DNA of 64,000 nt. It comes from Gracilimonas sp. (GTDB lineage Bacteria > Bacteroidota > Rhodothermia > Balneolales > Balneolaceae). This document shows positions 9,125 to 53,171 of this stretch, piece after piece; position 1 is the stretch's first letter, and each line of letters starts with the position of its first letter. Where the stretch lies: positions 186,001 through 250,000 of the forward strand of contig NZ_JAVJQO010000004.1 of the NCBI RefSeq assembly GCF_040218225.1. Reading direction: 5' to 3'. The position numbers and the translations under genes were made by a program. The notes under the pieces are model-generated. The model worked only from the letters and a program-made list of their open reading frames with translations, had not been told where the DNA came from and did no database searches.

Positions 9125-9213
9125 GTCATCTCCGGCACATGCCCGGGATCTATATGCCTTAAATAGTTCTTAATCGTTCGAAAAAACAAGATTCCTGCCT
9201 TCACAGGAATGAC
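9125..9213. repeat. Dispersed repeat (GTCAT...CCTGCCTTCxCAGGAATGAC type)
   Basis: Begins GTCATCTCCGG and ends ATTCCTGCCTTCACAGGAATGAC. The right half closely matches the end of the repeat at 49027-49122 (ATTCCTGCCTTCGCAGGAATGAC), and the two ends (GTCAT/ATGAC) are inverted. It fills the gap between two convergent genes. No coding potential. Confidence 0.7.
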
Positions 9214-9234
9214 TTATCTAAACGTATTTCAGCC

Positions 9235-16024: not shown

Positions 16025-16044
16025 AATTAACTCTAAACATAATT

Positions 16045-16184
16045 GTCATTGCGAAGGATTCAGCGGCCGAAGAAAGCAAATCCTGTGGCAATCTCCATGA
16101 AAAACCTGGAATATCGAATTATGGAGATCGCTTCGTCGGCTTACAGTAGAATTTATTTAACCATTTTCACTCTTCGCGACGACG
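16045..16184. repeat. Dispersed palindromic repeat, family A (GTCATTGCGAGG type)
   Basis: Starts GTCATTGCGAAGGATTC and ends CTTCGCGACGACG. Inside, GGCAATCTCCATG and ATGGAGATCGCTTCGTCGG face each other as an inverted pair. Same family as 20313-20466, 53032-53171 and the tandem array at 35021-36254. It lies between the GNAT gene and argG within the operon. Confidence 0.75.
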
Positions 16185-35020: not shown

Positions 35021-36254
35021 CATCGCGAGGAGAAATGAATGCTTACAGTCGAGTTATATTGTAATCCGACGACGCGATCTCACTGAACTATTTGGGATCT
35101 CGCTATCGGGAGATTGCTTCGTTGAACTATATCCCAATCCTGCATTAAGCATTTCGGGCGCCTCGCAATGACGGGTTTCTATTTTAATCCCGGTAAATCA
35201 CCCAATCCCGAAAATCATAGTTCAAATACCCGGTCATCGCGAGGAGTATCGGTGTTTTCACTCGGCCACCATTTTCTTCCGACGAAGCGACCTCCCTGCA
35301 TTACTTGAGATCTCGCTATCGGGAGATTGCTTCGTTGAACTACATCCCAAACCTGCATTAAGCATCACGGCGCCTCGCAATGACGGGTTTTTATTTTTTA
35401 ATCCCGGTAATCCCCCAATCCTGAAAATCATGGTTCAAATACCCGGTCATCGCGAGGAGTATCGGTGCTTGCACTCGGCCACCATTTTCTTCCGACGAAG
35501 CGATCTCCCTGAACTACTTGGGAGGCTGCTATCGGGAGATTGCTTCGTTGAACTACATCCCAAACCTGCATTAAGCATCACGGCGCCTCGCAATGACGGG
35601 TTTTTATTTTAATCCAGGTAATCCCCCAATCCCGAAAATCATGGTTCCAATACCCGGTCATCGCGAGGAGTATCGGTGTTTGAACTAAAGCAATTTGTCT
35701 TCCGACGAAGCGATCTCCCTGCATTACTTGGGATATCGCTATCGGGAGATTGCTTCGTTGAACTATATCCCAATCCTGCATTATGCATCACGGCGCCTCG
35801 CAATGACGGGTTTTTATTTTAATCCCGGTAATCCCCCAATCCCGAAAATCATGGTTCAAATACCCGGTCATCGCGAGGAGTATCGGTGTTTGAACTAAAG
35901 CAATTTGTCTTCCGACGACGCGATCTCCCTGCATTACTTGGGATCTCGCTATCGGGAGATTGCTTCGTTGAACTATATCCCAATCCTGCATTATGCATCA
36001 CGGCGCCTCGCAATGACAGGTTTCTATTTTAATCCCGGTAAATCCCCCAATCCTGAAAATCATGGTTCAAATACCCGGTCATCGCGAGGAGTATCGGTGC
36101 TTGCACTCGGCCACCATTTTCTTCCGACGAAGCGATCTCCCTGCATTACTTGAGATCTCGCTATCGGGAGATTGCTTCGTTGTTCTGCATCCCAATCCTG
36201 CATTATGCATCACGGCGCCTCGCAATGACGGGTTTTTATTTTAATCCCGGTAAA
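35021..36254. repeat. Tandem array, six copies of a ~211 bp unit derived from repeat family A
   Basis: Units start at CATCGCGAGGAG: 35021, 35235, 35448, 35659, 35869 and 36080 (spacing 214, 213, 211, 210, 211). Each ends CTCGCAATGACGGG plus TTTATTTTAATCCCGGTAA, and holds an inverted pair GACGAAGCGATCTCCCT / GGGAGATTGCTTCGTTG. Copies 4 and 5 share one variant block (TTTGAACTAAAGCAATTTG), copies 2, 3 and 6 another (CACTCGGCCACCATTTTC). Small ORFs called here simply read the repeats. The array fills the gap between fic and hsdS. Units are too long and too uniform for CRISPR. Confidence 0.92.
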
Positions 36255-42669: not shown

Positions 42670-42677
42670 GTGGGGTG

Positions 42678-42861
42678 GCCTTCGCGGGCATTGACCCTCT
42701 CCTTTGTTTCCTCTCCCCAGAGAGGAAGACTCCTTAGTGATATTTCAGCTTATTTCAAGACTCTTGCCAATGGGTATATTCTTTTACTCACTCATAAACC
42801 AACCAAGGAGTCTTCCCCGCTCGGGCGGGGATTGAGGGGCGGGTCAATGCCGGCGAAGGGC
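42678..42861. mobile_element. Repeat element 1 flanking DUF559 gene, with terminal inverted repeats
   Basis: 184 bp. Left end CCTTCGCGGGCATTGACC (42679-42696) is complementary to right end GGTCAATGCCGGCGAAGG (42842-42859) at 17 of 18 positions. Inside, GGAAGACTCCTT faces AAGGAGTCTTCC, so the whole can fold on itself. About 80% identical by eye to element 2 (43308-43490), same orientation; the block CCAATGGGTATATTCTTTTA onward through CTCACTCATAAACC is identical. No coding capacity. Confidence 0.8.
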
Positions 42862-42880
42862 TCTGCACTTTTATAAAAGC

Positions 42881-43252
42881 TCACTCATGCTCAAGTATCC
42901 ACCTTTCTATTTCCATCACTACAGACTCCGTATAGTGCTTAGCATCAGATTCACTAAAACGCAGAAAACTCACACCCAACTGCTCAATTATTTCCTGACG
43001 TTGTTTATCATATTCAATTTTATAGTCATGACTTCTGCCATCAATTTCGATTGCTAACCTGAGTTCACGGCAATAGAAATCAACGATGAAACGATGGACT
43101 GGATGCTGCCTCCGGAATTTATAATCGAGTAGCTTCTTATTCTTAATTGCTTTCCAAATTTCGATTTCGCCTGGAGTCGAATTTTTTCGAAGCCAGCGGG
43201 CTTTGGCAATAAGATCTTTCCTATATGGAATGATTGGTATTCTCTTTTTCAT
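42881..43252 (-). CDS. DUF559-family endonuclease-like protein (Vsr/PD-(D/E)xK fold)
   Basis: 123 residues. Start chosen at ATG 43252, preceded by AGAGGG on the minus strand; the longer frame runs into the flanking repeat. DUF559 signature parts are all present: ARWLRKNSTPGEIEIWKAIK, YKFRRQHPVHRFIVDFYCRELRLAIEIDGRSHD, and the helical end. The D-F-Y-C and A-I-E-I-D-G-x-x-H residues form the putative metal site of this Vsr-like nuclease fold. Flanked on both sides by 184-bp elements with inverted ends, in direct orientation. Biochemical function of DUF559 proteins is not established. Confidence 0.9.
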   Translation of the reverse strand: MKKRIPIIPYRKDLIAKARWLRKNSTPGEIEIWKAIKNKKLLDYKFRRQHPVHRFIVDFYCRELRLAIEIDGRSHDYKIEYDKQRQEIIEQLGVSFLRFSESDAKHYTESVVMEIERWILEHE

Positions 43253-43307
43253 TGTACCCTCTTTTATTTTAAAAACTATAAAAAATGAGGTAATGGCAAG
43301 TTTTTGG

Positions 43308-43490
43308 GCCTTCGTAGGCATTCACCTTCTCCTTTGTTTCCTCTCTCGGGAGAGGAAGACTCCTTGGTTATATCAGATTCCGCTACAACATGACTGCCAA
43401 TGGGTATATTCTTTTACTCACTCATAAACCAACCAAGGAGCCTCCCCGCTCGGGCGGGGATTGAGGGGTGGGTCAATGCCGGCAAAAGGC
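43308..43490. mobile_element. Repeat element 2 flanking DUF559 gene, with terminal inverted repeats
   Basis: 183 bp, direct copy of element 1. Left end CCTTCGTAGGCATTCACC (43309-43326), right end GGTCAATGCCGGCAAAAGG (from 43471). Inner pair GGAAGACTCCTTGGTT / AACCAAGGAGCCTCC. Its left end lies 56 bp upstream of the DUF559 start. The rest of the gap up to Hsp33 holds only a promoter-like motif. Confidence 0.8.
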
Positions 43491-43546
43491 TATCCCTTTT
43501 TTAAAAGACCATACTTCTCCCTCCAAATAAAATTACTTTTTCTGCG

Positions 43547-49026: not shown

Positions 49027-49122
49027 GTCATTCCGCGGCGTATGCCCGGAATCTTGTGCTGTATTAGTGTCGAACTGCTAGCTTTAAAAAGCATTCAGAT
49101 TCCTGCCTTCGCAGGAATGACT
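49027..49122. repeat. Dispersed repeat (GTCATTCCGCGG ... CCTGCCTTCGCAGGAATGAC)
   Basis: Matches 9125-9213 in its ends. Contains CTGCCTTCGCAGG hairpin. Fills the gap between convergent genes. Confidence 0.7.
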
Positions 49123-49125
49123 CAA

Positions 49126-49578
49126 TTAAATAGCGAAGGAGGTTCCGCAACCGCAGTTTTCAACGGCATTAGGATTGTCGAAGGTGAAACCGCGGGCATC
49201 CAGTCCATCCGGATAGTCGATTTGCATCCCTTCCAGGTACATGAGGTGCTTCGGAGCTACAATGATCTCAACTCCATAGCTTTCGTACACCTTATCTTCA
49301 TCCGTGCGGTAATCCAGCCCAAGCTTGTAGCTTAAGCCAGAGCAACCTCCGCCGTCAACAGCTACACGCAGGTATAAGTTGTCATCAAGGTCTTCCTGCT
49401 GCTTTATTTTTTCTACCTGGCGGGCTGCCCGCTCAGTAAGCACTACAGGTTCACCGGTCAGTTCTTCTTTTTGGTAATCTTTTTCAGTGATGGGCTGAGG
49501 TGCAGCTGCTTCCTCTTCGTCATCCACATCAATTAATGAGGATATTACATCATCTAAACTTTCTTCTTCAACACTCAT
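49126..49578 (-). CDS. A-type iron-sulfur carrier (IscA/ErpA/HesB family)
   Basis: 150 residues. The C-terminal ~105 are the HesB domain with the three cluster-binding cysteines: VDGGGCSGLSYKLGL and NCGCGTSF. An unusual acidic N-terminal extension (about 45 residues, SVEEESLDDVISSLIDVDDEEEAA) precedes it. Carries [Fe-S] clusters to apoproteins; the nearby lipA (a radical-SAM [4Fe-4S] enzyme) is a plausible client. Downstream of the AlbA-type gene on the same strand, 30 bp apart. Confidence 0.92.
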   Translation of the reverse strand: MSVEEESLDDVISSLIDVDDEEEAAAPQPITEKDYQKEELTGEPVVLTERAARQVEKIKQQEDLDDNLYLRVAVDGGGCSGLSYKLGLDYRTDEDKVYESYGVEIIVAPKHLMYLEGMQIDYPDGLDARGFTFDNPNAVENCGCGTSFAI

Positions 49579-53006: not shown

Positions 53007-53031
53007 GGTGCTTCTTTAATAATTTCAGCAT

Positions 53032-53171
53032 GTCATTGCGAGGGATTCAACGACCGGAGGAAGTAAATCCCGTGGCAATCTCCATTATTTAATTTCATTG
53101 CCATTTTAGGGAGATCGCTTCGTCGAAAGAGTTCTTTGAGCGCTCTAACTCTTTTGCCTCCTCACGATGAC
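53032..53171. repeat. Dispersed palindromic repeat, family A
   Basis: GTCATTGCGAGGGATTC at the left end, CTCCTCACGATGAC at the right; GGCAATCTCCATT inside faces AGGGAGATCGCTTCGTCG. Same family as 16045-16184 and the tandem array. Lies between lipB and lipA. Confidence 0.75.

Follow-up and report, generated by a model that had tools for sequence, protein, structure and literature searches.

A DUF559 nuclease-like gene between two direct copies of a palindromic element, and the association of DUF559 genes with such repeats in other bacteria

The window, by which we mean the whole 64-kb stretch of Gracilimonas sp. DNA analyzed here, contained a DUF559 nuclease-like gene on the reverse strand (42881-43249) with an element on either side. 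The first-pass annotation had placed this gene between two direct copies of a self-complementary element, and pairwise comparison and BLAST showed this arrangement to be real. The left copy (42677-42865) and the right copy (43307-43491) were both in forward orientation, were 86% identical and shared a central block of 53 nt with 96% identity. The gene was shorter than the 123 residues first given, since the ATG at 43249 produced a protein of 122 aa; starting at an in-frame ATG further upstream would extend it to 146 aa. The proposed inverted ends and inner inverted pair were both seen in the left copy, where their coordinates were read on the forward strand. Namely, sequence reading and folding paired the outer 5' arm GGCCTTCGCGGGCATTGACCC (42677-42697) with the 3' arm GGGTCAATGCCGGCGAAGGGC (42841-42861), and folding also paired the inner arms at 42728-42738 and 42802-42812. 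Each copy consisted of two outward-facing units with a hairpin and a mirror-repeat tail. According to the motif scan, these units were located at 42697-42726 (reverse) and 42814-42842 (forward) in the left copy and at 43327-43356 (reverse) and 43443-43471 (forward) in the right one. The same motif occurred nowhere else in the window.

We designated the element of the window gene E1 and that of the only other DUF559 gene in the genome E2. Both E1 copies had outer inverted ends, one hairpin per side and an inner stem, and as single-stranded DNA they were more stable than dinucleotide shuffles (z of -7.3 and -3.6; 0/200 shuffles in each case). Support for this structure from covariation was modest. 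The proportion of paired cells was 88.5% compared with 85.6% in shuffles (0/500), and the covariation score was reached by 3/500 shuffles, with a one-column slide scoring nearly as high. Three of the five structure measures (the counts of paired changes and of pair types) did not exceed the shuffles, and the inner-stem test was marginal with 105/2000 shuffles equally good. The left and right copies were mosaics: the 5' half of the left copy was nearest to its orthologue (5/95 differences) and its 3' half was nearest to the other copy of the same genome (3/81 differences).

Apart from the two E1 copies and the match of these copies to their own reverse complement, a whole-genome BLAST search (3.54 Mb) returned one remnant of 43 nt, which was on a different contig and had its half-units in reversed order; there was no further full-length E1 copy in the genome. 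Thus, the element was concentrated at DUF559 genes in this search, rather than being common genome-wide with no enrichment near them. For the window elements, Rfam yielded nothing relevant, and whalefall-1 (RF01762) stayed below its gathering cut-off there and in genome G000. The PADLOC matches were all weak. The window also contained a tandem array of units of about 213 bp in up to six copies (35040-36242) and two dispersed repeat families (16044-16098 and 53031-53085; 9189-9222 and 49097-49130), which resemble palindromic repeats of the GTCATTGCGAG and GTCATTCCTGC types.

The product of the window gene matched Pfam DUF559 (PF04480) at 2.4e-29, with 101.8 bits against a curated cut-off of 20.6, and had weaker Pfam matches to MTES_1575 and DUF2726. 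Profile searches connected it to the solved DUF559 structure 3HRL (1.5e-33) and to the homing endonuclease I-Bth0305I (3R3P, 4.1e-7). The AlphaFold model (pLDDT 89.6) matched the folds of 3HRL, I-Bth0305I (Foldseek 9.7e-5) and, weakly, Vsr, so the fold was predicted to be of the Vsr/EDxHD type. The conserved residues included E28, R47, Q48, D57, E68, D70, H74 and D81 in the numbering of the window protein.

The second DUF559 gene of the genome was bracketed as well, by two direct copies of E2 (209 nt, 91% identical). E2 differed from E1, and the genome also contained one gene-less full-length E2 copy (77%) and one fragment. The folding of the two E2 copies was no better than that of shuffles (z of -0.8 and -0.6). 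Just past the second E2 copy, at L005 2096-2129, we observed a third type of hairpin-plus-mirror-tail repeat with no DUF559 gene of its own in view. Separately, the copy of the E2-bracketed gene in genome G027 (L075 763-1131) had an apparent frameshift near its end.

Bracketing of this kind was not limited to one genome. DUF559 genes were present in 65 of the 92 Balneolaceae genomes, with 0 to 9 matches per genome. After removal of seven same-place duplicates, two very long ORFs and one ORF with a short flank, 57 Balneolaceae ORFs left 47 loci; direct flanking repeats (E<1e-5) were found at 37/47 of them, in comparison to 5/150 random intervals. Mismatched pairs of flanks shared repeats in 11/150 cases, so some of the elements were common to several loci. 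A second set was obtained by searching named genomes with a single DUF559 alignment. It contained 80 loci, of which six had short flanks, and at least seven of the remaining 74 were also in the Balneolaceae set. These loci belonged to Balneolota, Bacteroidota, Cyanobacteria, Ignavibacteria, Calditrichaeota, Neomarinimicrobiota and anammox planctomycetes. Flanking repeats were direct at 34/74, inverted at 25/74 and of either kind at 46/74, compared with 3/137 control intervals from the same loci. A direct repeat at E<1e-5 was absent at 10/47 Balneolaceae and 40/74 cross-phylum loci. By sequence reading, the cross-phylum elements had a common design, ACCCACCCC-nn-CCCCTCCnnGGAGGGG ... CCCCTCCnnGGAGGGG-nn-AGGGGTGGGT.

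Ten loci from a plasmid collection (Alphaproteobacteria and Deinococcus) were examined as well. Repeats flanked six of these at E<1e-5, including a Sphingobium locus that was counted by its repeats, and a seventh at 0.007. The Sinorhizobium meliloti unit consisted of CCCTCACCCTAACCCTCTCCCCG and its palindrome, which occurred at 26 places in the record, and the rhizobial element RIME1 may be similar to it. Additionally, the Neisseria gonorrhoeae relative of 3HRL was bracketed by direct repeats of 122 nt (88%). Overall, DUF559 genes were flanked far more often than control intervals across the genomes compared.

In each E1 half-unit, the hairpin had a purine arm that was separated by a short loop from its own mirror image, which is the pattern of an intrastrand triplex. 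We scanned for this motif within 400 nt of each gene, using seven-base arms with at most one mismatch each, and compared the counts by Fisher tests. It was found near 68/74 cross-phylum DUF559 genes (49 on both sides) against 4/140 control intervals of the same loci, near 29/47 Balneolaceae genes (17 on both sides) against 0/40 controls, and in 8/12 loci of a further set that had no controls. The motif was missing near the other 6/74 cross-phylum genes. Its strict form was absent from the E2 copies of L005, from L011 and from the whalefall-type loci examined. Since E2 and these whalefall-type loci did without it, the motif was not universal.

The elements and the proteins also varied together. 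For the loci with a direct repeat of at least 100 nt (n=29), the nearest-neighbour element came from the same DUF559 subfamily in 28/29 cases, compared with a permutation mean of 4.9 and a maximum of 15. The similarity of the proteins followed that of the elements at these loci (Mantel rho 0.33, with 0/1000 permutations as high), and rho was 0.31 over the 401/406 pairs whose outer flanks did not align. Common descent within a single bacterial family may account for part of this pairing. One exact element pattern occurred in 29/65 DUF559-bearing but only 3/27 DUF559-free Balneolaceae genomes (p of 0.0019, Spearman coefficient of 0.50, ancestry ignored), with some counts inflated by overlapping matches. 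The pattern was also present in 25/30 other DUF559-bearing genomes. The reversed control pattern was absent from most genomes and occurred three times in one cyanobacterium that had four true matches. The first-pass annotation had named DUF559 homologues in genomes without the element as a refuting outcome, and taken literally this outcome occurred, since the pattern was absent from 36/65 DUF559-bearing Balneolaceae genomes. However, different DUF559 subfamilies carried different elements, so a single exact pattern represented one subfamily only. Both bracketing and gene-element pairing were well supported.

The genes themselves were under purifying selection (dN/dS of 0.05-0.26 in five comparisons), and at least seven of the Balneolaceae matches listed had internal stops. 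One explanation for a DUF559 gene near repeats would be a host repair nuclease that processes structured or mismatched DNA and is kept near, or captured between, repeats without spreading them. The Caulobacter protein VsrA, which belongs to the same fold family and itself carries DUF559, fits this idea: according to the accessible text of the corresponding paper, which does not describe repeat bracketing, VsrA sets off the SOS response when a methyltransferase is mutated, and a Vsr-type role in T:G mismatch repair is proposed for it (PMC12907096). The stable position of ycjD, the E. coli DUF559 gene, in many strains points in the same direction. However, genes that are multi-copy and patchy among the 92 genomes, with broken copies and subfamily-specific elements, look selfish. 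We therefore considered a host repair role quite improbable.

Comparison of orthologous sites revealed several states of the unit. By eye, the site upstream of one gene contained an E1-like element-gene-element block in genomes G000, G023 and G027, a solo element in G026 and G029 and neither in one more genome; G029 had the solo element with zero DUF559 matches in its genome. Similarly, the E2 site contained the whole block in G000, G027 and G024 and a solo E2 in G023. The existence of empty sites, which had been raised as a check, was confirmed by a locus of G028 with 99.5% identical flanking copies, since the orthologous site of G021 had neither gene nor elements. In this case, 928 nt in G028 corresponded to 36 nt in G021 between aligned blocks that were 85% identical on one side and 96-97% on the other. 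The ends at this site were ragged, and we detected neither a target-site duplication nor a clean insertion junction. Nor was there a clean junction in Sinorhizobium, where both aligned relatives (K101 and C101) carried the gene. The solo E2 of G023 was at a breakpoint (L074, reverse strand, downstream of an alanine-dehydrogenase-like gene), and the next gene was unlike that of G000 and G024. An element-mediated inversion in G023 was considered and dropped, because the expected gene was not beside the other E2 locus of this genome (L109).

Such sites might suggest homing without transposition, where solo elements are empty alleles that are cut by the nuclease and then converted by recombination, and the elements spread in some other way. 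The relationship of the DUF559 protein to I-Bth0305I in sequence and fold is what homing would predict, as are the solo elements at sites where relatives carry the gene. The location of the gene between two direct copies would also be expected if the insert had duplicated its site. In contrast to the known EDxHD homing endonucleases, no intron or intein was present and the gene was located between palindromic repeats in intergenic DNA. Moreover, one neighbouring gene differed at the solo sites of G026, G029 and G023, so these solo copies may be scars of deletion or rearrangement. Homing alone also does not provide the movement to new sites that tight gene-element pairing at non-orthologous positions asks for, and we regarded it as unlikely.

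Some of these repeats already have names. The BoxC/PIT/TM repeats were known from E. coli by the 1990s. The hairpin-plus-tail units flanking DUF559 genes were identified as these repeats (BoxC/PIT/TM_ECO), and a stretch of the E. coli unit recurred 13 times in the text of Holder et al. (2015; PMC4666352). The accessible text of that paper gives 23 copies in E. coli MG1655, including five inverted pairs, reports triplex formation by TM_ECO in vitro together with raised rearrangement at such loci, and cites the earlier work of Hoyne and Maher (2000, 2002). It also states that the authors never found genetic-mobility activities near the units (PMC4666352). Both the published repeats and the units described here had a hairpin followed by a mirror-repeat purine tail, were intergenic, occurred singly or as inverted pairs, were present in many genomes and were linked to genome instability. 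They differed in that no mobility gene had been published for BoxC/PIT/TM, whereas our units bracketed DUF559 genes and paired with their subfamilies. Moreover, triplex formation has been observed in vitro for TM_ECO (PMC4666352, accessible text), whereas the window element is known by its sequence pattern.

In E. coli, the ycjD gene was located between sapF and fabI and was followed by one BoxC/PIT/TM unit. The unit was present in 5,100/5,426 E. coli genomes at 1 to 7 places (median 4; 51-nt query), which is an undercount because megablast was used. No clean empty ycjD site was found; two ycjD-less strains that we examined (L258 and L259) had an efflux operon after sapF. At another E. coli site, between ypfG and tkt, the unit was present in 6/40 evenly spaced rows, and 33/40 aligned without it. 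Three unit-less rows that we examined had a GTAG-type REP at this position, in one case with otherwise identical flanks.

Another DUF559 subfamily was flanked by the Rfam family whalefall-1 (RF01762), whose half-unit scored above the gathering cut-off. In the accessible text of the original report, whalefall-1 counts among the noncoding RNAs regarded as certain, with no role assigned to it, and comes from environmental sequences only (PMC2864571). Matches were found in 38/92 Balneolaceae genomes, 18 of them above the cut-off, with up to 52 per genome. In at least eight genomes (G002, G005, G007, G025, G026, G035, G039 and G040), a DUF559 match was no more than about 130 nt away. Individual matches were located at L121 3727-3782, L114 4737-4792 and L116 9332-9389 and 9966-10023, and those of L114 and L116 flanked DUF559. 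In G040 (contig C1, L247-L248), the whalefall-type units occurred both tail-to-tail and head-to-head in a BIME-like manner. Two full elements of this genome (L248) also bracketed an ordinary 289-aa ORF.

This ordinary gene would be expected if the repeats were spread by an unrelated enzyme and served as terminators or insertion hot spots, with DUF559 genes merely landing between them as passengers. The alternation of unit and REP-type sequence at the ypfG-tkt site would be expected as well, and so would solo elements dispersed far from any DUF559 gene, for instance in G022 and G038, with 36 pattern matches. However, control intervals from the same loci rarely contained either the repeats or the motif, and a passenger gene would not match the type of element to the subfamily of the protein. 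It was therefore very improbable that DUF559 was a passenger, and this was the least plausible explanation that we considered.

The first-pass annotation had compared the locus to a REP/BIME-plus-RAYT arrangement. The genomic predictions of this comparison (bracketing, pairing and a gene-less site) were borne out, but the HUH enzyme of RAYT systems was not part of the picture. As in REPtrons and BIMEs/REPINs, the gene was flanked by palindromic repeats, the repeats were also scattered as single units and inverted pairs, and types of protein paired off with types of repeat. The enzyme in REP/RAYT systems is the HUH Y1 transposase (TnpA_REP), whereas here it was a nuclease of predicted Vsr/EDxHD fold. 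Additionally, the unit design as read had a purine-rich mirror tail in place of a GTAG-type foot, and several DUF559 genes per genome were common. CGTC-type REPs are said to be without a transposase in the accessible text of one paper (PMC3733652). We considered DUF559 as their enzyme and dropped this idea, since four motif matches were within 700 nt of DUF559 genes and none resembled a bracketing REP. Among the mostly freely available papers that we searched, none tied DUF559 to repeats.

The explanation that we favored, with a probability of about 0.65, was that a Vsr-fold nuclease recognises, cuts and spreads its cognate palindromic repeat, and that the gene with its two elements forms one selfish unit. 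It draws on the analogy to REP/RAYT systems, whose enzyme is unrelated, and to homing endonucleases. As the gene lies between such repeats in many bacteria, and each type of enzyme has its own version of them, the enzyme is probably the agent of their spread. In this view, two palindromic units face outward in the element, and in each of them a mirror-repeat tail follows the purine-rich arm of a hairpin. With such an arm and tail, it could fold as a hairpin or an intrastrand triplex when the DNA is single-stranded or supercoiled. We infer that the DUF559 protein would bind its own cognate element and nick or cut it, and that repair of the break may then carry a copy of the element, or of the whole element-gene-element block, to a new location. 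Such repair would also homogenise or delete copies when the direct repeats recombine with each other.

A broader hypothesis is that REP-type mobile repeats have a second class, independent of HUH enzymes and spread over many bacterial phyla, which has DUF559 proteins as its dedicated nucleases. This class would include BoxC/PIT/TM of E. coli, with YcjD as the E. coli member, as well as the rhizobial GAGGGTTAGGGTGAGG-type palindromes and the whalefall-1 "RNA". We consider this slightly better than even, and thus somewhat less certain than the selfish unit itself. If the link holds across phyla, it would give the BoxC/PIT/TM repeats an enzyme and DUF559 a function, and it would explain an Rfam "RNA" (whalefall-1) as mobile DNA. 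E. coli K-12, where ycjD lies beside such a unit, would allow a direct test of the idea. Finally, with such a link, REP-type systems would have arisen around two unrelated enzymes.
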